A stretch of 64,000 nucleotides of DNA from Metallibacterium scheffleri (GTDB lineage Bacteria > Pseudomonadota > Gammaproteobacteria > Xanthomonadales > Rhodanobacteraceae). Each line of letters begins with the position of its first letter. The stretch's first letter is position 1. The stretch is taken from positions 310,001 to 374,000 of the forward strand of contig NZ_LDOS01000005.1 of assembly GCF_002077135.1 (NCBI RefSeq), read 5' to 3'. The notes under the pieces are model-generated. The model saw only the letters and a program-made list of their open reading frames with translations. It searched no databases and was not told where the DNA came from. Shown in pieces: positions 741 through 42,437 of the stretch. A program made the position numbers and the translations under genes.

Positions 741-2613
741 GCCCGCGCTCCACGGCCGGTTTTGCCGCGGGAAGTTCAATCTGCACCCGGGCATTGAGAT
801 CTTCTCGAACTGACCGCGCCAAGCTCCAGAGCGCCCTCTGTTGCTTTGGGTCGCAACGTGATGGATTTGCAGTCAGATCGAGAGTTCGATCGACATACAG
901 CACGTGTCCGTGATCACCGACCTGATAGGTTGCTGTGTATCGGCCGACTCCGCCTGGCGCGATGACTTCGATGTCGTGCGGAGCCCGAATGGATCGGGCG
1001 CCGATCACGTTGATCTTGGTCTGCTCCTCGCGCAGGGTGCTTTGACAAAGGCCCGGCCCTGTTTGCGACAGGAAGTCCGCCATGGGGTGCAGGCTGACAG
1101 CTGGGCGCGGAATGCTGATCGAGAACCTCGAACCCGGCACAACATAGCTCGGATCGTTGATGCCAGCGCCATATACAAAGCGGACGTTTGGTGTGTTGAG
1201 ATCGCTGCTCGTGTGAATGGCCACATCGGTAGCCAGGACGCCGGCATAGCGAGTTATCCGATCGCGGAGACTCCGCAACGGACGCGTGAGGAACGCAAGC
1301 CGGCTCGCCTCTCCGAGTGCGCCGTAGTCGGCGATGACTGCAGTGCCAGAAAGATCGCCGTTTGGGCTGATGGTCAAACTGGTGCGCACGGCATCGGCCA
1401 TGGAGTCGATGGGATGAAATGGAATGCGGAGCAAGTCCACCCCACCATTCGGACCCACGCTGTAGCCGAACTTGCCGGCATCGCCCGGAGCGACTTCACC
1501 GATCGATATGAAGGGCGATCCGATGTCGAGCGGATTGCTGTTGTTGTTCGCGGCCAGCATGACCTTCCCCAGAAAGGCCGGCATCGGCTGCACCACCGGA
1601 TGCCAAAACAACGGCAGTCGTGGGACCATGACCAAACTGGTCGAAATGGCTTTGGCGCGCATGAGCGCCTGCAGCAGGATGACTCGATCCTGCGGGCTGC
1701 CATAGCGCGACAGGAGTATCTGCTGTGCGGACCGTGGCGTGGTGTTTTCCAGATCGAGCGGCAGATCGACCAGTCGGATGTGATCGTTGATCCAGGCGTA
1801 GTAGCGACGCATCAGGCTTGCGGGGTCGATGTCTCCTTGGCCCAGGGTGTCGGCCAGGTGTTGCAGTTCCAGGGTCATGCGCTCGGCCTTTTGAAGCTTG
1901 GCTGCGTAGGCCTTGATTTCCCTGTGTACCGATGGATAGATGCTGATCGCGAGGTACGGGCTCTTTTGCATCCGTTCGGACGGCGATGCAACGTCCACCA
2001 GCGGCGCCACATGGCGGATGCGGAAGATGACGTTCTGGTGGTCCCCATGCTGCTTGCGGAGCAGCGATCCGTTGTTTCCCTCGACGTAGAGTTTGAGTCC
2101 GGCCGGGAACTGCACATCGACTTGTGCCGATGCGATGGGCTGCGTCCTGTCGAACAGTCGGAACAGCCCGAACGCACCGGGGAGATCATGAATCGAGGTC
2201 ACCCGCTCATACTCGGCTTGAACGATCGTTCCCGGCACAACGTGGCGAAAGCGCACTTCGGCGACGCGTTGGGTCGCATATGCCGGCGCGGCCGACGCAG
2301 AGATCGGCTTGAGTACGTTGACGCGCGGTATTTCATACCCTGATCCAGGTGTGATTTCCGATGACGCCAGCACGCTAACCTGTTCCCATCCTGAATTGAA
2401 CGGGATCGCAAGCCGCTTGAGCGCGGCCGCACCGTCCGAAGTCGTGGCCTGCTCGCGGAGGAAACGGGTTTCGACCACACGGCCATCAGCGTGCAGGACG
2501 ATGTGCGTGGTGTCCCTGAGAATCATGATGGCACCTGGCGGGGCGGCTCGCGCTGCCGTACCACAGAGGCCAATGGTGGCCAACAGGAGAATCCAGGCTT
2601 GGAACGACTTCAT
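733..2613 (-). CDS. Exported DUF3857 / transglutaminase-like protein
   Basis: 626 residues. A signal peptide (MKSFQAWILLLATIG... cut near ARA-APP) sends it out of the cytoplasm. Residues about 40-250 resemble DUF3857; about 255-340 resemble a transglutaminase-like core. The family normally shows GDCKD with the catalytic Cys; here the same place reads GSPQDR, so the nucleophile is missing and a structural or binding role is more likely. The C-terminal part is beta-rich and of unknown role. It is first in a two-gene operon with the SprT-like gene. Upstream, a TAGCCT -10-like box (near 2718-2723) and an AAATGCC...GGCATTT hairpin (2679-2700) lie in a non-coding leader. Confidence 0.65.
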   Translation of the reverse strand: MKSFQAWILLLATIGLCGTAARAAPPGAIMILRDTTHIVLHADGRVVETRFLREQATTSDGAAALKRLAIPFNSGWEQVSVLASSEITPGSGYEIPRVNVLKPISASAAPAYATQRVAEVRFRHVVPGTIVQAEYERVTSIHDLPGAFGLFRLFDRTQPIASAQVDVQFPAGLKLYVEGNNGSLLRKQHGDHQNVIFRIRHVAPLVDVASPSERMQKSPYLAISIYPSVHREIKAYAAKLQKAERMTLELQHLADTLGQGDIDPASLMRRYYAWINDHIRLVDLPLDLENTTPRSAQQILLSRYGSPQDRVILLQALMRAKAISTSLVMVPRLPLFWHPVVQPMPAFLGKVMLAANNNSNPLDIGSPFISIGEVAPGDAGKFGYSVGPNGGVDLLRIPFHPIDSMADAVRTSLTISPNGDLSGTAVIADYGALGEASRLAFLTRPLRSLRDRITRYAGVLATDVAIHTSSDLNTPNVRFVYGAGINDPSYVVPGSRFSISIPRPAVSLHPMADFLSQTGPGLCQSTLREEQTKINVIGARSIRAPHDIEVIAPGGVGRYTATYQVGDHGHVLYVDRTLDLTANPSRCDPKQQRALWSLARSVREDLNARVQIELPAAKPAVERGHG

Positions 2614-2823
2614 GGGGTGGTCCGCGTTGAGCTATGTGCATCCTACGAACTCGCGGACCCACCCCTGGGCATGAAATGCCCTCTCAGAGGCATTTTCTGG
2701 GTACCGCTGTCAGGCTAAACCGCGCGCGATATTCTTCACGAAGTGTTAAAAGGCACACAGGCGCTGGCGTATCGGCAAGCCGGCCTCTTCTTCGACCCAC
2801 ACACGACAAAAGGACGATGATCT
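2614..2823. promoter_or_regulatory. Divergent intergenic region
   Basis: Separates the leftward DUF3857 gene from the rightward 418-residue gene. On the minus strand a TAGCCT hexamer and a short hairpin (AAATGCC...GGCATTT, then C) precede the DUF3857 start. On the plus strand AAGGACG (about 2811-2817) gives the ribosome binding site for the ATG at 2824. No protein-coding evidence is visible inside. Confidence 0.4.
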
Positions 2824-4080
2824 ATGCGCAATTCCCTCCCACCTCCAGGGCACCTCGCGCTTCTGCTCCGCATGCGTGATGGTGGGTACGCGTACGACAC
2901 CCTCAAAGATCTCTCAACGTGCAAGGAGCGTCCCAACCTTGCCGACGCCGAGATGGCGCTGGCGGCGCGCGAAGATGAACTCAGCATGCTGGCCGTCGCG
3001 ACGTTCGGTTACTCGACCCCAGCAGTTCTGTTGGCCTACCAACGCGCCACCAGTGATGTCGTGCGCCTATCTGCTGCAGGCAACGGTTTTGCCGCGGGCA
3101 CCGGCTGGTGCGGGAGCGTTCTCGACCTCGAGCAGGCGGGTGCACTGCTGCGCGCGTCGCCTGGTGCCCTCGGCGTGTTTGCGTCAAATCCGCGCATGAC
3201 ACCAGAAGGCTTGCTCGATTTGTGCTCTGGTCAAGGACCTGCGGCAATTGACCTACGTGGCCGCTTGAGCGAGTTATATGCAGGGCTGGCAAATAACCCG
3301 TCAATTCCGTCCATCGTCGTGAACGGTTGCACATCGAATCCGCCGTCTCTTGCTGTTAGATCCTTGCTCTCTTCCATAGCAGGATGCCCGCTTGATACTG
3401 TACACGCTGAGGCCATTTGCGACCTTCTCGAAAGGATTTGGCGCAACTTTCATACCGGCGTGATGCTTCCGCAGTCAGACGCTCAAGCGGCAATTTCCCA
3501 CTGGTTTTGTGCGGCTGATGAAGCTCATACAGGCTCGGCCGCATTTGAGGTTCGCCTCTATCTGAACGCGCTCTCGGATGACTCGGTAGAACCACGGCGC
3601 GGTGATGACATGGCCAAGCGTGCTGCTGCCATGATGCGTGCTTTGCTGTGGTGTGACGAGGGCATGATCGAACGGCTTTACAACCTTGACCCACATGCGT
3701 TCGTAATCGCACTCCGACATACGCCTGTTGCGCAGTTCTCAGACCAAGCGCAGTCTGAGTTGGCTCATCTGCACAAGCGTTCGACTGACCTTGACGTCTT
3801 TTTTACAGCCCAGCAGGCGATTTTCGAGGATGCGACGCCTGACGCAATGCTGAAGCCATTATCACGCGGCGAGTTCCGGGCGGCCGCAAGATGGCTTGAT
3901 TCAGCACTGCGCAAGCTGGCGCCAAACCTCCAGTTGTCGTTGCTTAGAGCGGCATCTGACCTGCAAGAAAGCAAAGGCGTATCGCGGACCAACTCCTTCC
4001 TCTTCGCTGTGTTCGGATTCTTGGTTATTGTTCAGTTGTTGCTGACCATTCTCGTGCTTGGAGACCTCTATCACTTCTAG
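2824..4080 (+). CDS. Unknown protein with C-terminal membrane anchor
   Basis: 418 residues, not recognised. Mostly helical, with several Cys residues and a repeated leucine-rich, HEAT-like feel (for example RSLLSSIAGCPLDT, SLLRAASDLQESK), but I cannot assign a domain. Residues about 392-414 (FLFAVFGFLVIVQLLLTILV) form one clear transmembrane helix at the very C-terminus, which suggests a tail-anchored cytoplasmic protein. ATG 2824 has AAGGACG upstream. The following gene starts about 60 bases downstream, so the two are probably co-transcribed. Confidence 0.6.
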   Translation: MRNSLPPPGHLALLLRMRDGGYAYDTLKDLSTCKERPNLADAEMALAAREDELSMLAVATFGYSTPAVLLAYQRATSDVVRLSAAGNGFAAGTGWCGSVLDLEQAGALLRASPGALGVFASNPRMTPEGLLDLCSGQGPAAIDLRGRLSELYAGLANNPSIPSIVVNGCTSNPPSLAVRSLLSSIAGCPLDTVHAEAICDLLERIWRNFHTGVMLPQSDAQAAISHWFCAADEAHTGSAAFEVRLYLNALSDDSVEPRRGDDMAKRAAAMMRALLWCDEGMIERLYNLDPHAFVIALRHTPVAQFSDQAQSELAHLHKRSTDLDVFFTAQQAIFEDATPDAMLKPLSRGEFRAAARWLDSALRKLAPNLQLSLLRAASDLQESKGVSRTNSFLFAVFGFLVIVQLLLTILVLGDLYHF

Positions 4081-4141
4081 GCCTTGCGCGACGCGTGAAG
4101 TGGTGTATGAGGGTTGTGACTCCCTACACGTGTCAGCGCCC

Positions 4142-5488
4142 ATGAACAGCACCGCCACCCGTGCCAACACCCGTGCCAACACCTCCATCGCGGACATCAA
4201 TGCGGTGCTGCGATCGTGCGGGATCGGCAATATCACCCAGCATGAACTGGCAATGGTGAGCGCACAGATCGACTTGGTCCGTTTCAACACGACGCTGGCG
4301 GCCATCCGCGGACCGAAATGCATCACGCGGGATCGGGCCGCCCAATTCATGCGAACCACCGTCGACAAGGCGCGCGTCGCGATTGCTGGCGGTGCCGAAG
4401 TGCCGGCGGCGCCATGGCCCGATCTGAGCGCGAAAACGGTCGCCCTTTCGAGCCTCCGTGATGTGAATACCACGCTGTCGACCATCGGTCTTCCGAGTCT
4501 GCGCCCTGAGCATGTCGAGCCGCTGCTGAGGAACTATGGGCGAACCGAGATTCTTCGGCTGATGAACCTTGCCGTCGCCGGCGGTGAGACGGGCGACCAG
4601 GCCAGGAGGACTCTGCGCTCGATGATCTCTGAGACCGTTTCAGCAGCTGGCAATGGATCCGCTGGCCGCGCTCAACAACAGACAGCACAAGTGCGGACGC
4701 TCCCCGTGGCGCGGGCGGCGGCGGACGAAATCCCGGCCGAGGTTGATGTTGAACGCGGCGACGACGCCACCCTCGCCCGATCGCAACCCGCTTCGAGAGG
4801 GCAGGTACAGAACACTGCAGGTCAACGCGAATCGGCGCGTCAATCGGACTCGGGTGAGCATGGTCAAGCAATCGCGCGGCGCGACACTGGCACCCATGAA
4901 CGGCGCGCCACCGCGCAGGTTGTGGATGCCGGATCAGCTGATTCGCACCGCTCCAGTCAGGATCGCGTGCAGTGCAAAGCCTATGGCAACCGGGCGGCCA
5001 TCACGGTCGAGACGGCCGAGACTGAGGCCGGCATCCCAACAGTGCGCTTCGAGTTCGCTCCAGTGCAAGGCAACGGCGATTCCGGTCATCCCGATGATGC
5101 GTCGACCGACAAACCGGGCAAAGCGTATGACTGGAGCAAGAAGCTGATCATCCAACTCACTGCAGATGAGGTTCCTCAGCTGCTGGCCGTCTTATATGGC
5201 TTCGCGCCCAGCGCCCAGTTCTCCAACCACGGACAGTCGAAGGTGAAATGGATGTCTCTGGAAAACCAGGAGAAGTCCATCTACATGCGCGCCGGCGACA
5301 AGGACGTGCCCATCCTGGTGATCCCCGTCAGTTCGCCGAACTCGATCATGCAGATCGCCAACATCGCGATGCTGGTTGCGCGCAAGCGCAACCGCGCTCT
5401 GAGTGGCGATGACATCCGTTTGCTGGTCAAGAACCAGGTGGCTCAGCGAATCAAACCCGTGCAGCAGAGCCGCCCCGGAGTCCGCTGA
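4142..5488 (+). CDS. Unknown protein with conserved-looking C-terminal domain
   Basis: 448 residues from ATG 4142; a TTG at 4058 inside the previous gene is the longer alternative. The middle (about 170-310) is low-complexity, Gln/Arg/Ala-rich and probably disordered. The last 130 residues are compact (YDWSKKLIIQLTADEV... MQIANIAMLVARKRN) and alternate strand and helix, somewhat like a PC4/Whirly-type nucleic-acid-binding fold; this resemblance is only an impression. A strong terminator follows directly. No function is claimed. Confidence 0.6.
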   Translation: MNSTATRANTRANTSIADINAVLRSCGIGNITQHELAMVSAQIDLVRFNTTLAAIRGPKCITRDRAAQFMRTTVDKARVAIAGGAEVPAAPWPDLSAKTVALSSLRDVNTTLSTIGLPSLRPEHVEPLLRNYGRTEILRLMNLAVAGGETGDQARRTLRSMISETVSAAGNGSAGRAQQQTAQVRTLPVARAAADEIPAEVDVERGDDATLARSQPASRGQVQNTAGQRESARQSDSGEHGQAIARRDTGTHERRATAQVVDAGSADSHRSSQDRVQCKAYGNRAAITVETAETEAGIPTVRFEFAPVQGNGDSGHPDDASTDKPGKAYDWSKKLIIQLTADEVPQLLAVLYGFAPSAQFSNHGQSKVKWMSLENQEKSIYMRAGDKDVPILVIPVSSPNSIMQIANIAMLVARKRNRALSGDDIRLLVKNQVAQRIKPVQQSRPGVR

Positions 5489-5565: not shown

Positions 5566-6720
5566 TCAGCCTGCTTGCCTTGGCTTGAACTGCACCACGT
5601 TCGACTGCCTTGCTCGCGCAAAGCTGGGAACGTGGTTGATCGCGTCCTTGCCAAACTGGTTGTAGACATCCAACCAGTCGACCGACTTCGCGCCCGATGG
5701 TACGGGTCCAACCGGTAGATCCAGCCGCGTCTGAATGCCTTTGGCCTTGAGCGCTTCCTGCAGCGCGCTGGCAGCCTCCTGGCCGCCACCGCTGACGTCA
5801 TTGTCAGCAAAGATCGCAACGCCTCTCACGCCTTCCGGTGGAAGAAATGAGCGCATGAGCGACGAGCTGACAACGGACCAGCAGGTGTACCCGGTGAAGG
5901 CGTGGACCGCGAGCGCGGTCTCAAGCCCTTCGGCTACTGCGAGAACGCCCTTGATCGCCGGACCGAGTCGAATGGCGCCCGTGTGAATGCTGACGGACGA
6001 GGGCCGACTCATCATCTTCTTCGGCTCAGGAACAGGCGCCTTTCCGCGCCCATCCTTGGACAGGTAGGTCCGATGGAGCGCGAGGGTCATCCCCTCTCTC
6101 GACTGCACCCGAGCAACGATCGCCGGGAACACGTCGCACTCGCCCGTCTCGGAATCCCACCACTCGAGTTCTGGAATGAACCTGAGCGCGCCGTCGATGC
6201 CATCGTCGCGAGTCGGCTGCTGCAGTCCACGCGACTCCAGGTAACGCCAGGCAAGTGCTGCGGATGGGTGCCAGACCGGCACGCCGCCGTCCCACACTCT
6301 CCGCATCTTTGCAACGGCGTCCAGATCCTTCTGAAGATCTTCATTGGTCTTTGCCTTTACCCTGGGTTCCACGCGACTGACTGGCGGCGCATAGGCCGTC
6401 TGACCCTCGCGTAGAACCTCGGGGGCCACGATTGACGCGACCGCCTCCAACATCTGCGGAAACCGCCAACCGCGCAGCCACATCAGAACTGCAAAGCCAT
6501 CGAGATATTTTCCTGCGAATTCCCTGCAGGTGTTGCAGACACCGAGCCCATTCGTTGCGGTTCGATGCAGACGGAAACCGTCTTTGCCACCGTGAACAGG
6601 GCAAGGAACGTGACGTCCCTTGACCCTGACCGCGGCTTCCAGCTCAGGCGCCAGTCGGGCGTAGATCTCTTCCCACCGCCCTTCCGCGCGCCTGCGCACG
6701 GTTGTCACATCGATTTTCAT
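5566..6720 (-). CDS. Toprim primase with zinc ribbon
   Basis: 384 residues. An N-terminal zinc ribbon like that of phage P4/T7-type primases is visible: C40-x2-H43 and C62-x2-C65. A Toprim domain lies at about 250-345, with the catalytic Glu in AEGLETALA and the DxD-type acid cluster in IFADNDVSGGG. It should make RNA primers for replication of the element; no fused helicase domain is present. ATG 6720 overlaps the stop of the vWA gene by 4 bases (ATGA), so it is the last gene of the AAA/vWA operon. Confidence 0.85.
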   Translation of the reverse strand: MKIDVTTVRRRAEGRWEEIYARLAPELEAAVRVKGRHVPCPVHGGKDGFRLHRTATNGLGVCNTCREFAGKYLDGFAVLMWLRGWRFPQMLEAVASIVAPEVLREGQTAYAPPVSRVEPRVKAKTNEDLQKDLDAVAKMRRVWDGGVPVWHPSAALAWRYLESRGLQQPTRDDGIDGALRFIPELEWWDSETGECDVFPAIVARVQSREGMTLALHRTYLSKDGRGKAPVPEPKKMMSRPSSVSIHTGAIRLGPAIKGVLAVAEGLETALAVHAFTGYTCWSVVSSSLMRSFLPPEGVRGVAIFADNDVSGGGQEAASALQEALKAKGIQTRLDLPVGPVPSGAKSVDWLDVYNQFGKDAINHVPSFARARQSNVVQFKPRQAG

Positions 6721-8663
6721 GCCACCCTCCGCATGCTCCCTTTCAGGAGGTTGAACATCGCCACCGGAAGTTCATCGAGGCTATTCACCACGATGTTTTT
6801 CGCAAACAGGCATGTGACGGCTGGATGCTGGATGCCGACGCCGATCACTTCGATCGCTGACTTCGCGTACAGCTTGATCAGCTCGCGCACGCTGTGCGCA
6901 TCATTGGGATCGCCATCGGTAACGACCATCAGCATCTTGCGTTCTTCCTTGCGTGTGGCAAGCCTTGTTGCAGCCCAGATCATGGCTTCCGCCATTGGCG
7001 TACCCCCGCGCGGGTTGATCGCATACCGGCCAGAGGCTGGTCGTGGTTGCTCATCGAAATCCTTGAGCACCACGATCTCCGGAAATGCTGCGGCGGCGAC
7101 CTTGCACCCGTGGATCTGATGCACACCTGCTGAGATCGCAAGCGCAGCCTTCCTGGCCTCGTAGATTCGATTCGCTGTCGCCATCGAACCCGATACGTCC
7201 ATGAGTACCATCACCGCAGTATTGACCTCACACACCTTGCGCTCCCGCTTGAAGATCCGTCCGTCCGTGAACAGCCGGTGTGCTGCACCGCCATCGACCC
7301 TGCGACCGGAGACCTTCAGCACATCCCGCTTGCGTGCCTGAGCCTCCATCGCCGATGCCAACTTGGCGCGGAGCTGTGCAGAGCTGGCCATCGTGTCGTC
7401 GAAATCCGGCGCTTTTCCGCGATCCGGCCGGACGACATCGAGTGTGCGCCCGAAGACAGGTCCGTGCCCTGTCGTCGCGGCCTCGCTGACAACTTCCTGC
7501 GTGGCCTGCTGGCTCAGCTGCTCGGCGGCGATGTCGCCGATGTCCGTCGGCTTGAAATCGCCACTTTGCGCGTCGAGTGCCTGGCGCAGCGCCTGGCGAT
7601 TGGGGCCGTTCGAGCGTTCGGATTGCGCCGGCTGCTCTTGCCCGTTGTCGCCATGCCCTGCACCGCTGTTTGCGGGGACGTCCATGGTCCCAGTGGCACT
7701 CGATGGATCACCGTCTTGCGACGAATCTCCACCGCCCTGATTGGCTCCCGATAAATCGTCTGCAGCACCATCCTGGGTGCCGTGGTCACTGTCGCCTGAC
7801 GCGCTTGCGTCCTGCTGTGAACCATCAGCGTGATCGGATTCATCACTCTGGTCAGATCCACCTGACGCGTCGTCGTCACCGGCTGTGGCGCTTGCGTCCT
7901 GCTGTGAATCATCGCTTTGGTCGGATTCACCGCGTTGACCCGATTCGGTTATCGCGTCCTGATCGTCATCGTCAGCGCCCTCATCTTGCTGAGATTGCGG
8001 CTGCTCGGGTGGTTTCTCTTTCGAAAGATCACCCAACAGGCCGACGAAACGTCGGGCCAGACCCAAGGCCTCACTTGTACTGGTGAGTTGATAGACCCCA
8101 TCGAGCAAAGCGTCGAGCCTGAGCATTCCGGCATCCCCTACCAACGCCTGCATCTGCGTTTCGTAGATGGATGCCGTTTGGGCCACATTCTGGCCCAGCG
8201 CCTCTGTCCTGAGCCTCGTAAGAAGCCAGTACGCGATGCACTGTGCCGGGTGCTGGCCGGCGCGGATTTGCTCTTCCGTGCCAAACCCGCCTTGGCGATC
8301 GATGTGTTCCGCAAGATCCGCAAGGGTCTTGCGTGCGCCCGGGTAGGTTGCGATCCGGGCCGCTTCCATGCGCACATCTTCGATGACGTTCAACAGCTCG
8401 AGCTCGAGCTGCGTGTCACACATCCCGTACACCGGAATCGATGTTTCGACGATGTGTCCCGTTTCGTGCATCAGATAGCCCATTGCAAGCGTGCGCAGGG
8501 TGTCCGTGCATGCGGTCGGCATGGCGGGCAGGTTGATCCTCTGCCCCCGGGCGAATGCCCGGTCGCCACCGATCGTCACCTTGATGCCCTGGCTCTCGCC
8601 GAAGGCAATTGCGAGGATGGGAAGGGATCCGAGGATCCCCTCCTGAAGCTTGTTCTGGTGCAT
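6717..8663 (-). CDS. CobT-like vWA protein with zincin-type motif
   Basis: 648 residues. C-terminal von Willebrand A domain (about 455-648) with the MIDAS motif DVSGSM, the NPRGGTP threonine loop and VTDGDPND. The N-terminal 130 residues carry H66-E67-T-G-H70 followed by NVIEDVRME (E95), the arrangement of a zincin metal site. Between them is a very acidic Ser/Asp/Gln repeat (about 210-330). Relatives occur beside CobS-like AAA+ ATPases on mobile elements; despite the cobaltochelatase name there are no cobalamin genes here, so a chaperone-like or DNA-related role is more likely (inference). GGAGAACGTC precedes ATG 8663. Confidence 0.8.
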   Translation of the reverse strand: MHQNKLQEGILGSLPILAIAFGESQGIKVTIGGDRAFARGQRINLPAMPTACTDTLRTLAMGYLMHETGHIVETSIPVYGMCDTQLELELLNVIEDVRMEAARIATYPGARKTLADLAEHIDRQGGFGTEEQIRAGQHPAQCIAYWLLTRLRTEALGQNVAQTASIYETQMQALVGDAGMLRLDALLDGVYQLTSTSEALGLARRFVGLLGDLSKEKPPEQPQSQQDEGADDDDQDAITESGQRGESDQSDDSQQDASATAGDDDASGGSDQSDESDHADGSQQDASASGDSDHGTQDGAADDLSGANQGGGDSSQDGDPSSATGTMDVPANSGAGHGDNGQEQPAQSERSNGPNRQALRQALDAQSGDFKPTDIGDIAAEQLSQQATQEVVSEAATTGHGPVFGRTLDVVRPDRGKAPDFDDTMASSAQLRAKLASAMEAQARKRDVLKVSGRRVDGGAAHRLFTDGRIFKRERKVCEVNTAVMVLMDVSGSMATANRIYEARKAALAISAGVHQIHGCKVAAAAFPEIVVLKDFDEQPRPASGRYAINPRGGTPMAEAMIWAATRLATRKEERKMLMVVTDGDPNDAHSVRELIKLYAKSAIEVIGVGIQHPAVTCLFAKNIVVNSLDELPVAMFNLLKGSMRRVA

Positions 8664-8672
8664 GACGTTCTC

Positions 8673-9647
8673 CTAGAACAGGATGGCGGCTTGCACCGAC
8701 GTCGGCGATTCGTCCGCGAGCCTTTCGGCTGGGCTTTCTTCGCCAGCCGGTTGGGCCTGTGGAGTGGTCTGGACTTCATCGACGGTGATGGCCGCCAACT
8801 CATCCGTGTTGAACGCCGCACCCTGGGCGATGATCCGCTCGGGATTGGTCAGCATGGTCAGCAGGCCGCGGAGCGTGAGCGCTTCGCGATCTCCCAACCT
8901 GCGGCTCGACTGGCCGCCGATGCTCTCGGTCACCACGCCGATCAGGTGAGCCACCGATTCGATGGCAGGCTCGACGATGATCAGTCCCTTGAGCTTGGCG
9001 CCCAAGGCCATGACCGCCATGACTGCTGAGCTGGTGACATAGGCTTTCGCCTCGAATCGTTCGTCCAGCAGTTGCTGCGCCGTCTTCGCGACATCGCCAA
9101 GAATTGCTCCAAGCAGACTGCCTTGGGTGATGGCCATGCCTTCGTTGATCGGATCGTCCGGGTTATCGCTTGCCGGCTTCAACCGATAACACACGTGGCT
9201 GAAGCGGTAACGAGCCCTGACCTCGGAAGGTTCTGGGCGATCCCGGCGCAGAACAGCGACCCATTCCGGGTGCTTTTCTTCCCATTCCCGATAGTAGTCA
9301 TCGAGATTGCGGCAGAGGCTATCGGCCGCATCGGTGTACTCGGAAGCGATCTTCCGCAACGCCATGTCAAGATCCGCGACCGCGGATCGCGGTACGCCGA
9401 ATCCCTTCAAAAGCTGGAACCCGACGCGCCCGCACTCAGCATCCGCACGCTTTCGCAGCGTGTTGAACACCTGATTGTGGGCCGGGCTGCAGAAGTGGCG
9501 CACCCCGCCACTGAGCACGTCTGACGGCGGCATGTTCTTGGTGTCGTAATCGACGCCGCGCGATGCCCTTCCGCACAGACTTGAGGCACACGCCTCGAAT
9601 TGGACCAGGATGAGGTCATCCAGGTTCGTCACTGCGTTCGTATTCAT
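8673..9647 (-). CDS. DUF3150 family protein
   Basis: 324 residues, matching by pattern the DUF3150 proteins that accompany CobS/CobT-like pairs on integrative elements. Mostly helical, with a central coiled-coil-like stretch (DLDMALRKIASEYTDAADSLCRNL) and an Ala-rich C-terminal third. The last residues are AAILF, nearly the same as the last residues of the unrelated protein two genes upstream in mRNA order (TAILF). GGAGCAATCC precedes ATG 9647. It sits inside the AAA/vWA operon, 9 bases from the vWA gene. Confidence 0.75.
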   Translation of the reverse strand: MNTNAVTNLDDLILVQFEACASSLCGRASRGVDYDTKNMPPSDVLSGGVRHFCSPAHNQVFNTLRKRADAECGRVGFQLLKGFGVPRSAVADLDMALRKIASEYTDAADSLCRNLDDYYREWEEKHPEWVAVLRRDRPEPSEVRARYRFSHVCYRLKPASDNPDDPINEGMAITQGSLLGAILGDVAKTAQQLLDERFEAKAYVTSSAVMAVMALGAKLKGLIIVEPAIESVAHLIGVVTESIGGQSSRRLGDREALTLRGLLTMLTNPERIIAQGAAFNTDELAAITVDEVQTTPQAQPAGEESPAERLADESPTSVQAAILF

Positions 9648-13555: not shown

Positions 13556-14493
13556 TGCCGCCAGTGATGCCAACTTCGCCGGTATCGGGCATGTCCACCG
13601 TTCGCAGGCGCAGCCGACAGCGGGACAGCCGTATTCCAGTCGGCGGCGAACTGGGCTCTCGCGGGCGTGACGGTGGCTCCTGTCAGGACAACACCCATTT
13701 CCCGATTGCGATCGAGGGACGACACCGAGAAGTTCTGGCTCCCGATGAATGTCCATTGCTGACCCAGAATCATCTTCGCGTGCATGTATCCCGCTGACTT
13801 TGGCATCAGACGCACCTGGACGCCATGCGCGGCCAAGGCTTGGGCGTTCCGCCGGTCTTCCGAGGAGATCGATTCGGGCAGGATGACTTGGGCTTGCGCG
13901 CCCTTTGCCTCGATCGTCCGCAGGATCTGTCGATCCGAACCCATTTCCTCGCTCTCGATCTCGACCTGGCCAGGCTGAGCGATCATGGTCTCGATCGCTT
14001 GGGTCGCACCAGGCGAGAGAACCAGCCATTTCCTCACGGCGGATGGGGCACTCGTGTTGGTCCAGTCAGCATCGAACACCGCTCGCGCCGATTGTACGAT
14101 CGCTGGCTGCCGCGTCACCCAAAGGTATTCCCGATTCCGGTTGAAGGCAGACCAGTCGAAATTGGCCGTCCCGATCTCGCAGGCGTGAGCACTGCAGACG
14201 TATTTGGCATGGTCAAACACATAGCGCGCTTCGAAGCGTGCAGGCGCTTGCTCGACGCTGGCGCCCGTTGCGCGGGCAGCAGCAAACTCGCGCCGGACTT
14301 TTGCGGGAGCCATCTTGTAGGGCCTGCCGTCCAAGATGATTCGGACGTGGACTCCGCGGTGAACTGCGTCTTGCAGCGCGTGCAGGATCCCTCGGTCAGC
14401 CAAGTAGTAGACGTTCAGATCGATGCTGTGCTGCGCCTGCTGGATGACCTGAACAACAGGTGCGTCACCTGCGGTTGGCTGGATGTAGAGCAT
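13552..14493 (-). CDS. Phospholipase D-like protein with degenerate HKD motifs
   Basis: 313 residues from ATG 14493 (GGAG seven bases upstream); a further ATG at 14529 lies inside a hairpin and is unlikely. Two PLD repeats are clear: HAKYVCSAHACEIGTANFD and HAKMILGQQWTFIGSQNFS, each followed by N-R-N-R-E. In both, H and K are present but the Asp four positions after the Lys (HxKxxxxD) is replaced, by Ala and Gln. Relatives with full motifs are nucleases or phospholipases; activity is uncertain here. Confidence 0.75.
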   Translation of the reverse strand: MLYIQPTAGDAPVVQVIQQAQHSIDLNVYYLADRGILHALQDAVHRGVHVRIILDGRPYKMAPAKVRREFAAARATGASVEQAPARFEARYVFDHAKYVCSAHACEIGTANFDWSAFNRNREYLWVTRQPAIVQSARAVFDADWTNTSAPSAVRKWLVLSPGATQAIETMIAQPGQVEIESEEMGSDRQILRTIEAKGAQAQVILPESISSEDRRNAQALAAHGVQVRLMPKSAGYMHAKMILGQQWTFIGSQNFSVSSLDRNREMGVVLTGATVTPARAQFAADWNTAVPLSAAPANGGHARYRRSWHHWRH

Positions 14494-18364: not shown

Positions 18365-19489
18365 TTAACCACATCGTGATGCCGCGCATACAGCGCATTG
18401 TTCGCATCCAGATGACGCAACTACAGAACCGACCGCGCCACATTCCGTGCAGTCTTTGCCTTTTGGCATTGTTTGCGAAGAGCGCTCCTTCATTGCCTGG
18501 TTATTGATCACCGAGAGCACCGTCTTCCCTAACGGCCGGCCGTGTTCATCGCAGTAGCCAAGAACCTTGAATCGGTACTGGATCAATGCGGCGATGTAAG
18601 CTACGGTCGATGGATACCATGCCGACCTCTCGGCGCCAGGAACCTGGGCCATGAAGCCACCCATTGGTTCCGCTGCATCGATCAGCTGATCCGTCTTGCG
18701 TAGAATCCATCCCGGATCGACGATCCGCATGTCAAGACTGAGCGATTTGCACAAACCATCGAGCGATCGCGGATAGTTGCCTGACAGCCACAAACTGAAT
18801 GGGCGGCGTTGAGCATTCGGAAGCATGGCCTCCTTCAGAAACAGGCAGAAGTCATCGCCCGTCCCATGATTGGTTACATCCACCGTCCATGAGAGCGTGC
18901 CCTCGGCCGTCGTCTTCGGCTCCTTGGCCGACATCAGTGCGTCGATCAGTGGGTGCTCCGAACCTTCGTCCGAGAACGCACCCAACTCTTCGCAGCGATA
19001 CAGAACAAGTCGAGCAAAGGCCGCGACTGCGCTCGGTACGCGTGTCTCTATACCGTTGGGCATCGTGATCACGAACGGCTCGCCTGGGCACTTGGCCAAG
19101 GACTCGAGCTTGCGCCGCAGCCACTCCCGGTCCAGCGTCCGCATGTCCATGCTGATCGACTGTGCCAACGCGGACAGCCCGCGTGGCGCTTCACCCATCG
19201 CCCACACCTCGAACGGCGACATATGCCCGTTCTCGATATGACCGATGGTTACCGCGAACGAGCCACCTGGTGCGTCCACCATGTAGGTCCATGACGGATT
19301 ACCGCCGGGTGGTCGCGGTCGCTTTTCCCACCGAAGAACACCCGAAATCTCGGGAACCTTGGGAATCGTCAGACGACGATCTTCGGCCGCAACGAAAGAT
19401 TGAACTGCAGCGAACCCTTTTTTAATGGTTCCTGCGGCCTTCTCCACGATGCGGTACGACTTGATCGCCGCCGAGATCTTGATTGTCAT
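18365..19489 (-). CDS. Class II ribonucleotide reductase tail protein (NrdJ C-terminal/TSCPD-like, zinc ribbon)
   Basis: 374 residues from ATG 19489 with a perfect AGGAGG. Two similar units are visible (about 60-150, PSWTYMVDAPGGSFAVTIGH...FEVWAMGEAPRG...; and about 195-290, LSWTVDVTNHG...FSLWLSGNYPRS...), each like the TSCPD domain of B12-dependent reductases. The end, CTECGAVGSVVASSGCEQC then CAASRCG, matches the Cys-rich tail of NrdJ that re-reduces the active site. The gene follows nrdJ exon 2 in the same direction, so here the tail is a separate polypeptide, comparable to the NrdJa/NrdJb split known in Pseudomonas. Confidence 0.7.
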   Translation of the reverse strand: MTIKISAAIKSYRIVEKAAGTIKKGFAAVQSFVAAEDRRLTIPKVPEISGVLRWEKRPRPPGGNPSWTYMVDAPGGSFAVTIGHIENGHMSPFEVWAMGEAPRGLSALAQSISMDMRTLDREWLRRKLESLAKCPGEPFVITMPNGIETRVPSAVAAFARLVLYRCEELGAFSDEGSEHPLIDALMSAKEPKTTAEGTLSWTVDVTNHGTGDDFCLFLKEAMLPNAQRRPFSLWLSGNYPRSLDGLCKSLSLDMRIVDPGWILRKTDQLIDAAEPMGGFMAQVPGAERSAWYPSTVAYIAALIQYRFKVLGYCDEHGRPLGKTVLSVINNQAMKERSSQTMPKGKDCTECGAVGSVVASSGCEQCAVCAASRCG

Positions 19490-19500
19490 GAAGCCCTCCT

Positions 19501-19521
19501 GCGGGGCGCTCTGCGCCCCGC
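19501..19521 (-). promoter_or_regulatory. Hairpin just before the tail-protein RBS
   Basis: GCGGGGCG-CAGAG-CGCCCCGC ends directly at the AGGAGG of the reductase tail gene. Being so close, it could gate ribosome access or set the ratio between the two reductase subunits. Confidence 0.5.
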
Positions 19522-19535
19522 TATTGGTGGTTGGA

Positions 19536-20716
19536 TCAGAATCGACCATAGACCCCTTCCTTCAGCGCTTCGTACAGATTCGCTGCAGTGTGGGAATCAC
19601 CGTCGTACTCGATGATGTCGTTACCCTTGGCCTGGACCTCAGTGCCGTCTTCAAGCGTGAAGACGTACTGCGTATTGGCCAGGTCCGACTCTCGAACAAG
19701 CACGCCCTGGAATGCCTCTGGGTTGAATCGGAACGTTGTGCATCCCTTCAGCCCACGCTCCGCTGCATAGAGGTAGACGTCTTTGAACTCTTCGAACGCG
19801 ATGTCCGTTGGGACATTCACAGTCTTGGAGATCGCGGAATCCACCCACATCTGAACGGCCGCCTGCACGTCGATATGCTGCTTTGGCGCCACCGTATCCG
19901 CCGACACGAAGTAGCTCGGGAGCTTGTTCTTCGGATCATTGGCATCCGGCGAGGCATTGGGATTGACCAGTGCCCTGTACGCCAGCAGCTCGAAGCTGCA
20001 CACATCGACCTTCTCCTTGGTCTTGCGCCCCTCTCTGATCACATTGCGTGAGTAGAGGTGCGCGAAGCTTGGCTCGACGCCATTGCTGGCGTTATTGCCG
20101 AAGGAGAGCGCGATCGTGCCGGTGGGCGCGATCGAAGTGTGATGCGTGAAACGCGCGCCGACCTCGGCCAACTGCTCGACCAGATCCGGCTCACGCAACG
20201 CGATGCGCTGCATGTAGCGGCTGTACTTCGCATGCAGAATGCGTCCATGCAGTCTGTCGCCGACCTTGTAGCCATCGGCAACCATTTCCGGACGCTTGCA
20301 CAGCATCTCCTGTGTGACTTCGAACTCTTGCAGAAGGATGGGGGCCGGACCCTTTTCCTTGGCCAGATCCAGGGCAACTTTCCACCCCGTGATCGCCATT
20401 TCGTAGGCCACATCCGCCGCGAACTCGGCCGAAGCCTTACTCCCGTACGGAATGCCAAGCAGCGCCAGCGTTGAGCCGAGGCCCAGAAAACCCATGCCAT
20501 GACGCCGCTTGGAAAGGATCTCCCGCTGCTGGCTTTCGAGGACGAGACCGTTGATCTCGACCACGTTGTCCAGCATGCGCGTGAAGATCGCGACCACCTC
20601 ACGGAACTTGTCCCAATCGAACGACGCCTGCGGCGTGAACGGATCGAGCACGAACCTTGTCAGATTCACCGAGCCAAGCAGACAACTCCCCGCAGGGGGA
20701 AGCGGCTGCTCTCCAC
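19536..20716 (-). CDS. nrdJ: Class II ribonucleotide reductase, exon 2
   Basis: The 3' part of the split gene, encoding GEQPLPPAGSCLLGSVNLT... to ...EGVYGRF. It includes the GSVNLTRFV finger loop, the GFLGLGSTLALLGIPYGS helix and the APTGTIALSFGNNASNGVEPSFA active-site region of adenosylcobalamin-dependent reductases. Without splicing, translation of this part could only start at internal codons (for example GTG 20669), giving a protein without the catalytic cysteine. Joined to exon 1 it gives 713 residues. Downstream lies the tail-protein gene. Confidence 0.85.
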
Positions 20717-20989
20717 CATCGCTGTTACTTTCGGCACTGCGCGTTGCGCGCTTCGCCTACTGACCGGCTTTCGCCGGCGGGAAGTCCACTTCGGACTTCC
20801 TCTCCCCTTTCATCGAACGCACGTTATCGGGGAGGTCTGACTGTCGCATACCGGCTTCGCCGGCCTCTCTCGCTCAGTCGATCACGCTGCACGGCCTTTC
20901 GGCCTGCTTGCGCCCTGTCGCCCGCGTGTCGGGCTTCCAAGTGATCAGAGAGAGTTTTCCTCACGCTCTCGCGCAAGGCCGCATGGTCT
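20717..20989 (-). ncRNA. Group I intron (273 nt, no ORF) inside nrdJ
   Basis: Removing these bases joins ...AACCCGT to GTGGAG..., giving N-P-C-G-E-Q, the reductase motif with the thiyl-radical Cys. The 5' exon ends in U and the intron ends in G, as group I introns require. CCAUGCGG at intron positions 5-12 pairs with all eight bases CCGU|GUGG of the joined exons: the P1 half has the G.U wobble at the splice site and the other half is P10. P2 is CCUUGCGC-GAGA-GCGUGAGG; P3 CUCUCUC/GAGAGAG (20948-20954 and 20865-20871); P7 UCGACUG/CAGUCA with one bulged base (20875-20881 and 20838-20843); P8 CCGGC-GAA-GCCGG; P9 hairpins follow, several with GAAA loops. No endonuclease gene fits inside. Confidence 0.88.
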
Positions 20990-21950
20990 ACGGGTTGGTG
21001 GCTCGGATATGCTCGCAGAACCAGTTGTTGTTCAGCTCGTTGACGCGATCGATCAGGATGAAACCTGGTTCGGCGTAGTCATAGGTGCTGGACATGATCT
21101 GGTTCCAGAGCTTGGTCGCCTTGATGGTGTCGTAAATCCGGCACGCCACCAGGCCATCCTCTCGCACGACGTAGTCATCCTTGACCGGCCATTCACGCCA
21201 CAGCACTTGCGTCGGATCGTCGAGATCCAGCTTGTGCCTTTCGGCGGCCAGAACAGGAAACGTCAACGGCCATTCGGCATTCATCTTGACGGCGTTGATG
21301 AAGTCATCGGTGATCAGCAGCGACAGGTTGAAGTTGCGCAGCCTGCCGTTTTCCCGTTTGCACCGGATGAAGTCGCGCGCGTCGGGGTGGCCCACGTCGA
21401 ACGTGGCCATCTGTGCGCCACGGCGCGCTCCTGCGGAACTCACCGTCGCACACACGCGATCGAAGATGTCCATGAAGGACAACGGGCCGCTGGTGCTGGC
21501 CCCCGCTCCCGCTACCATCGCGCCCTTGGGGCGGAGGGTGCTGAAGTCGTACCCGATGCCAGCGCCACTTTTCAGCGTGAGGCCGGCCTGGTGCGCCTTC
21601 GCCAGGATGTCATCCATGGAGTCATGGATGGTCTCGCTGACGGTGCAGTTGATCGTCGAGGTCTTCGGCTTGTACGCCGATGCCCCAGCGTTGCTCATGA
21701 TCCGTCCGGCCGGTGTGGCCCCATTCTCGAGCGCCCAAAGGAACGCTTTGAACGTCGGTTCTCGGCGGTTTTCGCGTTCGACGTCCGCCAGTGCGCGAGC
21801 CACACGAACGTAGCTGTCGTGCACGGTGGTATCGACCGGAACGCCATCGAGATCCTTGAGACGGTACTTCTTGTCCCAGATGTCTTCCGATGCGGGTTGC
21901 AATGGAAGTTCCAGCCGGGCTTTGATCTTCTGCTGGTGTTGTACGTGCAT
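20990..21950 (-). CDS. nrdJ: Class II ribonucleotide reductase, exon 1
   Basis: Encodes 320 residues plus the T of a split codon, from ATG 21950 (CAGGAGCAG upstream) to ATNP. It reduces ribonucleotides to deoxyribonucleotides using adenosylcobalamin. Clear NrdJ features: TPAGRIMSNAGA, the cysteine in STINCTVSETIHDS (disulfide partner), KSGAGIGYDFSTLRPKG and the GARRGAQMATFDVGHPDARDFI block. The frame ends at TAG 20988-20990 formed by the first intron bases, so the gene cannot give full-length protein without splicing. Likely supplies dNTPs for replication of the element. Confidence 0.88.
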
Positions 21951-21978
21951 TGCTCTGCTCCTGTAGTGCGCCCCAACC

Positions 21979-22023
21979 GGGGCACACCGAAACCCCGATG
22001 ACATCGAGGCTTGGGTGTGCCCC
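21979..22023 (-). promoter_or_regulatory. Leader hairpin of nrdJ
   Basis: GGGGCACACC (22014-22023) pairs with GGTGTGCCCC (21979-21988), ten pairs, about 35 bases before the nrdJ start. A second GC-rich hairpin (about 22056-22085) lies further upstream. No cobalamin riboswitch consensus could be recognised in this 170-base leader. Confidence 0.5.
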
Positions 22024-22119
22024 GGAAAGGGCAATCACCCACCAGAGGCAAAGCTCCCCCATCGGGGAGTGTTGCCCCGGTGGGGTTGAAGGAAAGCGGT
22101 ATTGCGCTAGGCTGTGGCC

Positions 22120-36191: not shown

Positions 36192-36787
36192 CGCTGTCCC
36201 GCCGGAGTTCTCCCACAAGGATACCGGGATGCTGCAAGTACTGGCGCAAATGGCCGGGGGAGCGCTGCTCGTGCCCAATGACGAAAGGCCCCGTAATGGG
36301 GCCCTCCGAACGTCGGCGCTTGATGAGTGGTGACTCGGCGCTCCCGCGGGAGACGCGTTGGCCTGGACGATGGCGAAAGAATAGCCACGGCTGCGCTGGG
36401 TGGTCAGTAATCCAACACCGGATTTGCAGGTAAGAAATTTCCGACGTCGTTGAGGGATAGTGCCTCACTTTGAAATTTTGGTGCTACTGAAAACCGGATG
36501 GCGTCGGGGGGATCATAGGCCGCCTGTCTGTTTCTGAAAATGGCCACCCCTACCGTGTTCGGCGCGTAAGTTGCCCATGTGGCCGCTTCTTGAGCTACCG
36601 CGCAACAGTCCAAAGGTCACCAGACACCCGGGATCAAGCGCCACGAGCGCAGACAGTAAGCCCGATAGCTCTCACCACGATACCGGTCTCCGAAAACTGT
36701 TCGCCGTCGGGTGCTACTCAGTCAAGATCTCTGAACGCTGCATCGCTCCCATCCCTCGCCTACACTGGCCCCAGAGCGAAGGGGCAT
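36192..36787. other. Intergenic region, no gene seen
   Basis: Nearly 600 bases between the leftward fragment and the rightward restriction-modification gene. It holds a short inverted repeat near 36285-36310 (GGCCCCGTAATGGGGCC) that could end transcription, and is less GC-rich around 36460-36500. No coding or RNA gene is supported. Confidence 0.4.
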
Positions 36788-40333
<3,546 letters not shown>

Positions 40334-40637: not shown

Positions 40638-42437
40638 TCACTCTGCTACAGAGTTATAGTTAAACCGATATCTGCGCAGTACATCCGTTGGAACATACTC
40701 GTCACCCAAACCATTTCGTCGACCACGTTCGGCAATGAGGTGCAGGTTCTTCCTCGCCCGCGAAGCGATCACGTATAGGAGGCGCTTTGCGCTGTTGCTT
40801 CCATCAGTATCCGCAAAATGCGGGACCATGCCTTCCAGCAGCGCATAGGCAATGACCGTATCGTACTCATCCCCTTTGATGCCGTGGATGGTTGATAGGG
40901 TGATTCCGGAGCGGTCACGGAAAACACGCCGGAACGCAGCGATCTCCCGGATGAACTGCGTGCCTTCCTTTCTAAGCCGTTCGATCCGGGCGGTAGAGCT
41001 CTCGAAGAACGAAACGTACTGATCTTGAAGTGCTGGAAAGGCAGTGAAATCGACGCCGAGTGCGGAAAACAGAGTTCCAAAGTACAGTTCTACGTACTTC
41101 AATCCATCGGTCTCGGCCAAGCAAATGTTGTTGGCTTCCCTCAGAAGTCGCTTGGGCGTCATCTCTGCCCTCGACACCCCGGCAGCATCCAGTTCAATGA
41201 GGACTTCCTTGGCCCAGCGCAGCCTGCGGACATACAACTCGGGCGATGCGCTGGTCAGTGCGATGCGAGCGAGCTTGTACCAGAAATTGTCGGGGTCTCG
41301 GGCGAAAGGCACCATCCCTGGGCCGTCGAACTCGTACTCAGGCAGTCGGTTCACCAGTCGCCGGGTCATGCCTGCCAGGTGCACCCACTGCGGCGCGAGA
41401 ATGCATATCTCTGAAGGCTCGATCCCCAGTGTGTCGATGTTGTAGCGGATCAGCGCCACTAGTTGGTCTTCCAGGTCATCCTTACTGGTCGTCGCGTTGT
41501 AGGTGATGATGCTGGGGTATGCCTTGTGCTTGGACGCGGCCTCTATCGATGAACCGTAGAGGCCGTAATGGCCGAAGTAGTTGATGATGCGTTCCGAGGA
41601 TCGGTAATTGTAGGTGAGCTCGGCTTCCTTGAAGGCGACACCCGACAGCGCAGCGAATTCCTTGGGGGTGATCGCGAACCCTCCAAGCGACTGGAAGATG
41701 GCCTGGTTGGGATCGCCGACAACGAACGCCCTGGTCTGTCCTGCGCCTGCAGCCAGAATCTTGGAGACGATCGAGTACTGGATTTCCTTGGTGTCCTGAT
41801 ACTCGTCGATGAGGATCAAGGGGAAGATGCCGGACAGGAGCTTCGCGATCGACGGGTTCTCCGAGATCAGCTCGTAGGCGTAGTAGAGCATGAGCTCGAA
41901 GTCGATCTTCCGGTCCTTCGAGAGCGCACGGAAATAGCCCTCGAGAATCTCATCGATGGCGCCGTGCTTGCGCGAATCGCGGCAGGTCAGCGTGTACCCA
42001 TCCTTGGTGAAGTAGAAGCCGCAGTCCCAATAGGTCACCTTGGGCGAGCGATAGGGCGCGCACAGATCGGTCAGTAGCTTCTCGGAGTCGTTGGTGCTGG
42101 CCACCGAGAATCCGTGCTTCAACTTGTCGTGATAGATCCCATAGGGTCGCAGTATCCATTCCAGGCAGAAGGAGTGGATCGTGCCAATCCAGAGGCGGGA
42201 CGCATCGACACCCAGTCGCTCGATGCGTCCCTTGATTTCGTCCGCCGCCCGGTGCGTATAAGTGATGGCCACGAGGCATTGCCGCGGCGACTCCAACTTC
42301 GACAGTTCTTCGGCAATCTTGAATGTCAGTGTCCTAGTCTTCCCGCTGCCGGGGCACGCGACCAAGAAGACGCTGCCGGCCTCGCGGATGGCCTCCTTTT
42401 GCGGCTCATTCAGATCGTGGTTGACCCAAACTGTCAC
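40638..42437 (-). CDS. gajB: UvrD/Rep-like helicase, Gabija GajB
   Basis: 599 residues from GTG 42437, one base after the gajA stop. Superfamily-1 helicase motifs: ACPGSGKT (27-34), AITYTHRAADEI, LILIDEYQDT, GDPNQAIFQ, YNYRSSERI, STIHGIKGDEYDTVIAY. In Gabija, GajB senses DNA ends or nucleotides and works with the GajA nuclease. Its size (about 500-600 residues) and its place right after gajA fit that system. Confidence 0.85.
   Translation of the reverse strand: MTVWVNHDLNEPQKEAIREAGSVFLVACPGSGKTRTLTFKIAEELSKLESPRQCLVAITYTHRAADEIKGRIERLGVDASRLWIGTIHSFCLEWILRPYGIYHDKLKHGFSVASTNDSEKLLTDLCAPYRSPKVTYWDCGFYFTKDGYTLTCRDSRKHGAIDEILEGYFRALSKDRKIDFELMLYYAYELISENPSIAKLLSGIFPLILIDEYQDTKEIQYSIVSKILAAGAGQTRAFVVGDPNQAIFQSLGGFAITPKEFAALSGVAFKEAELTYNYRSSERIINYFGHYGLYGSSIEAASKHKAYPSIITYNATTSKDDLEDQLVALIRYNIDTLGIEPSEICILAPQWVHLAGMTRRLVNRLPEYEFDGPGMVPFARDPDNFWYKLARIALTSASPELYVRRLRWAKEVLIELDAAGVSRAEMTPKRLLREANNICLAETDGLKYVELYFGTLFSALGVDFTAFPALQDQYVSFFESSTARIERLRKEGTQFIREIAAFRRVFRDRSGITLSTIHGIKGDEYDTVIAYALLEGMVPHFADTDGSNSAKRLLYVIASRARKNLHLIAERGRRNGLGDEYVPTDVLRRYRFNYNSVAE

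Follow-up and report, generated by a model that had tools for sequence, protein, structure and literature searches.

How can a class II ribonucleotide reductase (RNR) be produced from a gene whose reading frame is closed inside the codon for its catalytic cysteine? This question is raised by nrdJ in a 64,000-nucleotide stretch of Metallibacterium scheffleri DNA that is referred to here as the window. Exon 1 of this gene has its ATG at 21950 and ends with ...ATNP and the first base of the Cys codon, its reading frame being closed by a TAG that consists of base 20990 and the AG of an insert, and the frame resumes at 20716. A preliminary description of the locus had placed an insert of 273 nt between the two exons and had interpreted it as an ORF-less group I intron.

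The interrupted gene and its surroundings

Both the size and the place given for the insert were reproduced (Table 1), and joining the exons at CCGT|GTGG indeed yields a NrdJ of 713 residues without internal stop, in which NPCGEQ is restored and TG|T becomes the cysteine codon. Pfam Ribonuc_red_lgN and Ribonuc_red_lgC match the ORF at 20988-22034 on the side of exon 1 and Ribonuc_red_lgC matches that at 19536-20669 on the side of exon 2, the RNR barrel PF02867 being found on both exons (E 2.3e-51 and 3.8e-57). The best matches among solved structures were the B12-dependent RNR chains 1XJK/1XJE with NPC at 320-322, and the NPC cysteine of the window NrdJ aligns to residue 322 of Thermotoga NrdJ 1XJE, which we take to be the radical cysteine. 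RNR barrel, NPC motif and class II kin together place the protein among the class II enzymes. Comparison with intronless homologues, which had been named as a means of checking the interruption, revealed an unbroken NPC codon in 13 NrdJ rows without intron, among them those of L003, L004, L006, CRP-403 and CRP-804.

Table 1. Predicted features of the nrdJ locus in the window, in the order of the reverse strand, on which they all lie.
Feature	Position	Strand	Basis
nrdJ exon 1 (class II ribonucleotide reductase)	20990..21950	-	frame, junction; Pfam
Group I intron, 273 nt, no protein family over it	20717..20989	-	structure, relatives, guide pairing
Internal guide sequence CCAUGCGG: P1 with CCGU, P10 with GUGG	20979..20986	-	8/8 pairs
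P2 hairpin, GAGA loop	20959..20978	-	sequence, fold
P3 5' strand CUCUCUC	20948..20954	-	pairs with 20865-20871; covariation
P4-P5-P6 domain (CUUG/CAGG, GCCCG/CGGGC, GCGC/GCGU with P6a)	20884..20941	-	covariation
P7 5' strand, one bulged C (U-c-GACUG)	20875..20881	-	G-C pair 84/84
P3 3' strand GAGAGAG	20865..20871	-	covariation
P8 hairpin	20851..20863	-	covariation
P7 3' strand CAGUC-A	20838..20843	-	covariation
P9 stem-loop	20802..20834	-	covariation
P9.1 hairpin (label coined here)	20780..20800	-	covariation
P9.2 hairpin, GAAA loop (label coined here)	20763..20778	-	covariation
Family 3' signature GGUCAGUAG-hairpin-GAAAGUAACAG and terminal G	20717..20765	-	sequence
nrdJ exon 2, starts GTGG, completes the TG|T Cys codon (NPCGEQ)	19536..20716	-	Pfam, junction
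Conserved gene directly 3' of nrdJ, no Pfam family	18365..19549	-	homologues in L164, L161, L162

Elsewhere in the window, a Gabija anti-phage pair was recognized by PADLOC profiles as the adjoining genes for GajB (40638-42437, minus strand, E 6e-249) and GajA (42439-44577, minus strand, E 0), and next to this pair lies a large MmeI-like type IIG restriction-methylase gene (36590-40333, plus strand, PADLOC 1494 bits). Genes for a Toprim/primase, a CobT-like VWA protein and a DUF3150 protein occupy 5566-9647 on the minus strand; they have homologues in L164 and L161, and that for DUF3150 also in L162. L164, a Rhodanobacter plasmid with the same nrdJ intron, additionally carries a PRTRC gene set at 37-43 kb.

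Architecture of the insert and its relatives

The guide CCAUGCGG pairs with all eight bases of CCGU|GUGG as had been claimed, two of the pairs being wobbles. The P2 hairpin with its GAGA loop, P3, P7 with a one-base bulge, P8 and the P9 hairpins were confirmed in the order of a group I intron, and P4, P5 and P6 could be added to them. The folding energy of the insert is beyond chance, with an MFE z-score of -4.3 and none of 100 shuffles as good. The three antisense ORFs over the intron revealed no protein family and no homing endonuclease, a sub-threshold DUF match (E 0.027) being found in one instance. Neither of two subgroups is indicated: introns of subgroup IA are marked by extra P7.1/P7.2 hairpins between P7 and P3, where the window intron has only AGC, and those of subgroup IC1/IC2 by a P5abc extension, where P5 of the window intron is a 5-bp hairpin (20920-20934).

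The Rfam covariance search, which the preliminary description had proposed for identification of the intron, gave no RF00028 match, either at gathering over the window or at E<=10 over 20500-21200. The sole relaxed Rfam match in the latter stretch, HOXB13-AS1_1 (13.6 bits, opposite strand), was dismissed as chance. Since the gathering score of RF00028 (50 bits) is missed by the T4 introns of td (40.3 bits) and nrdB (35.7 bits) as well, the failure is a test of the model and not of the kind of intron. No Rfam match at gathering was obtained in eleven loci, comprising relatives and the non-members L127 and L128, and at E<=1 RF00028 was detected in two of ten loci, one of the matches falling on the family member L079 (E 0.0004). 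Phage introns are in general poorly served by the Rfam group I model, which a Bastillevirinae paper calls incomplete (PMC11878797).

By blastn, the insert was found again in two plasmids, one of Rhodanobacter and pTK9001 of Thioalkalivibrio, where it occupies the same codon. A search for the 3' signature GGTCAGTAG-N-GAAAGTAACAG matched at least 120 viral stretches and 27 stretches in bacterial and archaeal genomes, and an intron model, R1, was built here from relatives, the P7 pairing being absent from it. Two viral contigs obtained as pattern matches, L127 and L128, were rejected as introns, having neither the 3' signature nor an R1 match, and L011, L133, L149, L156 and L159 were rejected as family members, with R1 E 0.001 not being reached.

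In 22 aligned intron cores, 94.6% of 1127 cells are paired over 52 pairs from P3 to P9, including the P3/P7 pseudoknot, and 35 of these pairs are doubly changed; none of 500 shuffles paired to this level and slid controls remained at 37-43%. P7 is paired at 100% in these cores, two of its six pairs being doubly changed. For 95 R1 matches, 95.4% of 3814 cells are paired, a value biased towards R1 because the rows were aligned to it, and neither any of the 500 shuffles nor any slid control reached this covariation. Depending on the pair, P7 shows a standard pair in 80/83 to 84/84 of the R1-matched rows; its guanosine-site G-C pair is present in all 84 rows with letters, its end pairs covary, and its bulge base is C in 77 rows, A in five and T in three, with a gap in the remaining ten. 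Taken together, the P3-P8 core order with the P3/P7 pseudoknot and the G-C pair and single-base bulge of P7 are those of a group I intron.

Seven introns at the NPC codon and the case for splicing

Related introns in the same T|G phase interrupt at least six further genes, located on two plasmids, in two bacterial genomes (G311 and G089), on the phage contig L040 and in Roseobacter phage CRP-118. R1 was searched in samples of the class (369 genomes), order (299) and phylum (398), which overlap: in the class sample only G311 and G089 were matched beyond the genome of the window itself, both in nrdJ and at the same codon, and the order and phylum samples yielded no additional genome. The insertion point, T|GN of the NPC cysteine codon, is identical in all seven, with intron lengths of 273, 267, 293, 288, 287, 307 and 172 nt. 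The U that ends the 5' exon and the G that ends the intron, both pointed out earlier for the window, are kept in 7/7 introns, the U being paired with a G of the guide. Guide and exons pair at 8, 8, 8, 7, 7, 7 and 7 of eight bases; the P10 pairs amount to 4/4 in three introns and 3/4 in four, these four diverged cases having one mismatch each. In CRP-118, where the codon is TGC and the next base is different, two P10 pairs have changed on both sides with pairing kept (U-A to C-G and G-C to U-A), and in G089 a pair is kept after one guide-side P10 change (G-U to G-C).

The split ribonucleotide reductase gp44/gp45 of CRP-118 (OR420741) is like that of the window in that an intron of the same family (R1 104.6 bits) lies at the same T|G of the NPC codon. 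It differs in that its 172-nt intron lacks the 3' signature domain and in that it encodes a diverged phage NrdJ (NPCSEI). The annotation of this phage lists two reductase genes, gp44 and gp45, with no intron marked, and precise empty sites with an uninterrupted codon are offered by its close relatives CRP-403 and CRP-804.

Two other explanations of the interrupted gene were weighed against splicing. Removal of the insert at another level, as an intein, by translational bypass or by a different kind of ribozyme, is scarcely credible, despite the fact that an insert without Rfam match would fit it: a stop codon forms immediately at the 5' junction in five of the seven introns and the lengths are 0, 1 or 2 modulo 3, which excludes an intein; all translational bypass gaps are, to our knowledge, far shorter than 172-307 nt; and the group I core with its P3/P7 pseudoknot covaries. 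Intein and bypass were thus ruled out by stops, length and structure. It is also very unlikely, if somewhat less so, that the intron is dead or dying and the nrdJ of the element a pseudogene kept by chance. The copy of the element would be dispensable in such a case, given the second, intronless nrdJ on contig C2 of the same genome, which is 70% identical to that of the window and has an empty site with a 7/8 match to the window guide, and given the class I RNR small subunit on contig C1; a class III RNR gave no match in this genome. The gene tables of PLSDB, which are incomplete, moreover contain no feature over the nrdJ stretch in the intron-bearing Rhodanobacter plasmid or in pTK9001. What speaks against decay is that the two exons have kept an open reading frame and show purifying selection, the exons of the window and of its nearest counterpart on the Rhodanobacter plasmid (L001) sharing 70.3% DNA identity with Ka 0.229, Ks 1.30 and Ka/Ks of about 0.18, and that conservation in this comparison is higher for the intron core (84.5% identity over 206 positions) than for the exons. 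The same holds, by a smaller margin, for the window and Thioalkalivibrio (L002), with 67.1% identity for the intron core and 63.9% for the exons, and all seven introns have retained the guide, the splice-site U and the terminal G. Since the intron is conserved at least as well as the exons and the exons are under purifying selection, the insert is most simply one that is removed.

The covarying P3/P7 core, the wobble between guide and splice-site U, the terminal G, the pairing of P1 and P10 and the selection on intron and exons all argue for a cis-splicing group I intron, which almost certainly interrupts the catalytic-cysteine codon of the nrdJ of a mobile element; the resemblance of the window to plasmid backbones suggests such an element. 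That the codon for the catalytic cysteine of a class II RNR holds a group I intron without ORF, as proposed earlier, is upheld by comparative structure, by pairing at seven sites, by selection and by intronless homologues. Following this reading, guanosine bound to P7 would attack the 5' splice site after CCGU, and the freed exon would then attack after the terminal G and be joined to GUGG, generating the UGU cysteine codon. The immediate stop at the 5' splice site (T+AG) would bar ribosomes from the intron, and translation of the unspliced message would result in an enzyme truncated just before the radical cysteine, so the reductase of the element itself would need splicing. The earlier suggestion that dNTP supply depends on splicing can hold at most for this enzyme: with the intronless nrdJ on C2 and the class I subunit on C1, dNTP supply of the genome need not depend on the window intron.

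Probable spread of the intron, its wider family and known systems

In the best intron tree, the five plasmid and bacterial introns form one clade (98/96) and those of CRP-118 and L040 stand apart; the five-intron clade, of whose rows four are unusual in base composition, is absent from the purine/pyrimidine tree. The five bacterial introns are likely to represent one lineage. The corresponding five NrdJs were rejected as one clade by the AU test (p 3.6e-38), and for the three plasmid NrdJs as one clade the rejection was marginal (p 0.033). Placing the intron as a label on a NrdJ tree of 20 rows, of which the intronless ones were hand-picked, required six changes, at least three of them forced by well-supported branches. 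That nrdJ genes from different lineages contain the intron implies that it has moved from one nrdJ allele to another, which we regard as likely on these comparisons. The alternative, a single ancient insertion behind all seven NPC-codon introns followed by many losses instead of repeated arrival, appears rather improbable. It would be in line with the compatibility of the seven introns as one clade in the AU test (p 0.11) and with the gene just downstream of nrdJ that is common to the window, L164, L161 and L162, but it is disfavoured by the NrdJ exons of the five plasmid and bacterial cases and by the label changes just described, as well as by the intronless close relatives of CRP-118 and by the separate position of the CRP-118 and L040 introns.

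As regards the route of such movement, the homologues of the downstream gene in L164, L161 and L162 are 47-54% identical to that of the window and all lie just 3' of nrdJ, and since these elements have further backbone genes in common with the window, their nrdJ alleles could meet. Scanning of 10 neighbouring ORFs detected no homing endonuclease family, and the intron may be late-stage or trans-mobilised, as the preliminary description suggested from its small size and lack of a homing endonuclease. The intron might have spread between nrdJ alleles by means of an endonuclease from elsewhere or by reverse splicing. The latter is possible in view of the fit of the guide to eight exon bases: because the guide alone reads eight bases across a highly conserved codon, spread may proceed by reverse splicing.

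Judged by R1, the window intron is a member of a phage-rich family. At E<=0.01, R1 gave 148 matches in the 100 viral loci searched of at least 120 found, and E<0.001 was reached by 23 of the 27 loci from bacterial and archaeal genomes. At least two R1 matches were present in 20 of 63 aligned loci. The genes interrupted were assessed from 111 3'-exon fragments, among which tape-measure phrog_4211 was matched by 34, major-head phrog_1357 by 34, major-head phrog_283 by 11 and RNR phrog_367 by three; these counts are rough lower bounds, given per family and not as unions, the frames were picked by length with at least one of them, that of L001, being wrong, and the non-members L011, L149 and L156 are included. 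The preference for nucleotide-metabolism genes that had been put forward as generally known is therefore not found in this family, where tape-measure and major-head genes are the commonest hosts and phrog_367 accounts for 3/111 fragments. Endolysin, with nine matches, had been considered as a third host gene, and this count was dropped as two of the nine are tape-measure fragments. Tail and head families did not occur together in any of 14 fragments viewed singly.

Several loci show the arrangement of the family members within genes. In L077 (6054-6989, minus strand), three R1 matches lie between four coding stretches of one gene, the last of which matches major-head phrog_283, and in L028 (5993-7742, plus strand) a phrog_283 head gene contains three family introns separated by coding stretches. 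The viral contig L020 has five R1 matches within 2.4 kb (2274-4680, minus strand) and two more at 13701-14182. In L165, which is Podoviridae ctn9Y15, a family intron at 2491-2710 interrupts the P22-like coat gene, for which the annotation gives two coat genes plus a hypothetical protein, and the member at 5671-6058 of L123 is, with 388 nt, longer than its kin, its core insertion possibly encoding a protein. Among five tape-measure fragments viewed singly, two have a 3' exon that starts at phrog_4211 position 772 and two have one that starts at position 722 (the four being from L009, L134, L021 and L022), a hint that insertion sites are fixed in the tape-measure gene too.

Capsid and tail genes with introns have been described before (PMC3706429), also from crAss-like phages (PMC7886860). 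Splicing was demonstrated by RT-PCR for the intron in the minor-tail gene of mycobacteriophage BAKA, which has 265 bp and no endonuclease, and for the capsid intron of LittleE, which carries an endonuclease gene; their type is called unclear, most likely group I, by the authors (PMC3706429). R1 matched BAKA weakly (28.4 bits, E 1.5e-7), with an alignment that overruns the published intron end, and LittleE with 24.0 bits. Both introns resemble that of the window in the U before and the G at the end of the intron and are located in virion genes, the commonest hosts of the family. Moreover, the BAKA end AGTAACAAACCG is similar to the AGTAACAGNNNG ends of the window family, and its published 3' end comes after an AGUAACA motif as in the window intron. 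On the other hand, both are very divergent and their hosts are not RNR genes, and LittleE differs further by its endonuclease gene.

RNR genes are well known to harbour group I introns, and for phages these are reported from T4 nrdB and nrdD, Twort nrdE and SPbeta nrdE/nrdF (PMC3653736); unlike the window intron, these reside in class I or III genes, and several are listed with endonucleases. No part of the T4 td/nrdB region was matched by R1, and its match within 50 kb of Twort is doubtful (11.9 bits, E 0.044 and 0.017). The group I introns of bacterial nrdE, nrdF and recA covered in the Hausner review (PMC3984707) and that of Salinibacter nrdA (PMC3019208) are comparable to the window intron in that they interrupt protein genes of DNA metabolism, many with an in-frame stop after the upstream exon, and, as described in these sources, differ from it in not being in class II genes. 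A search of the open-access literature, as far as its text could be matched, returned no recognizable description of an intron in the nrdJ NPC codon, and the over 100 RNR introns curated in RNRdb (PMC2795772) may include some. The kind of intron is already known; the surprise is how far this unlisted lineage extends.

Tentatively, and with less than even confidence in the picture as a whole, the family may be viewed as a group I subgroup centred on phages, whose compact introns often lack an ORF, mostly escape Rfam and reside mainly in tape-measure and capsid genes; such introns would have repeatedly entered the radical-cysteine codon of class II RNRs and may spread by guide-directed reverse splicing without an endonuclease. 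The hosts of the radical-cysteine-codon introns would then comprise phages, plasmids and other bacterial genomes, with several introns per gene occurring elsewhere in the subgroup. Apparently new are the occurrence of related introns at one active-site codon in diverged class II enzymes of plasmids, bacteria and phages and a guide RNA that spans a catalytic codon and co-varies with the exon in CRP-118. As the family is abundant in viral contigs and the standard library fails to detect it, annotations would show the virion and nucleotide genes that it interrupts as split or missing. Furthermore, the empty sites in close relatives provide a clean comparative system for the spread of introns without endonucleases.
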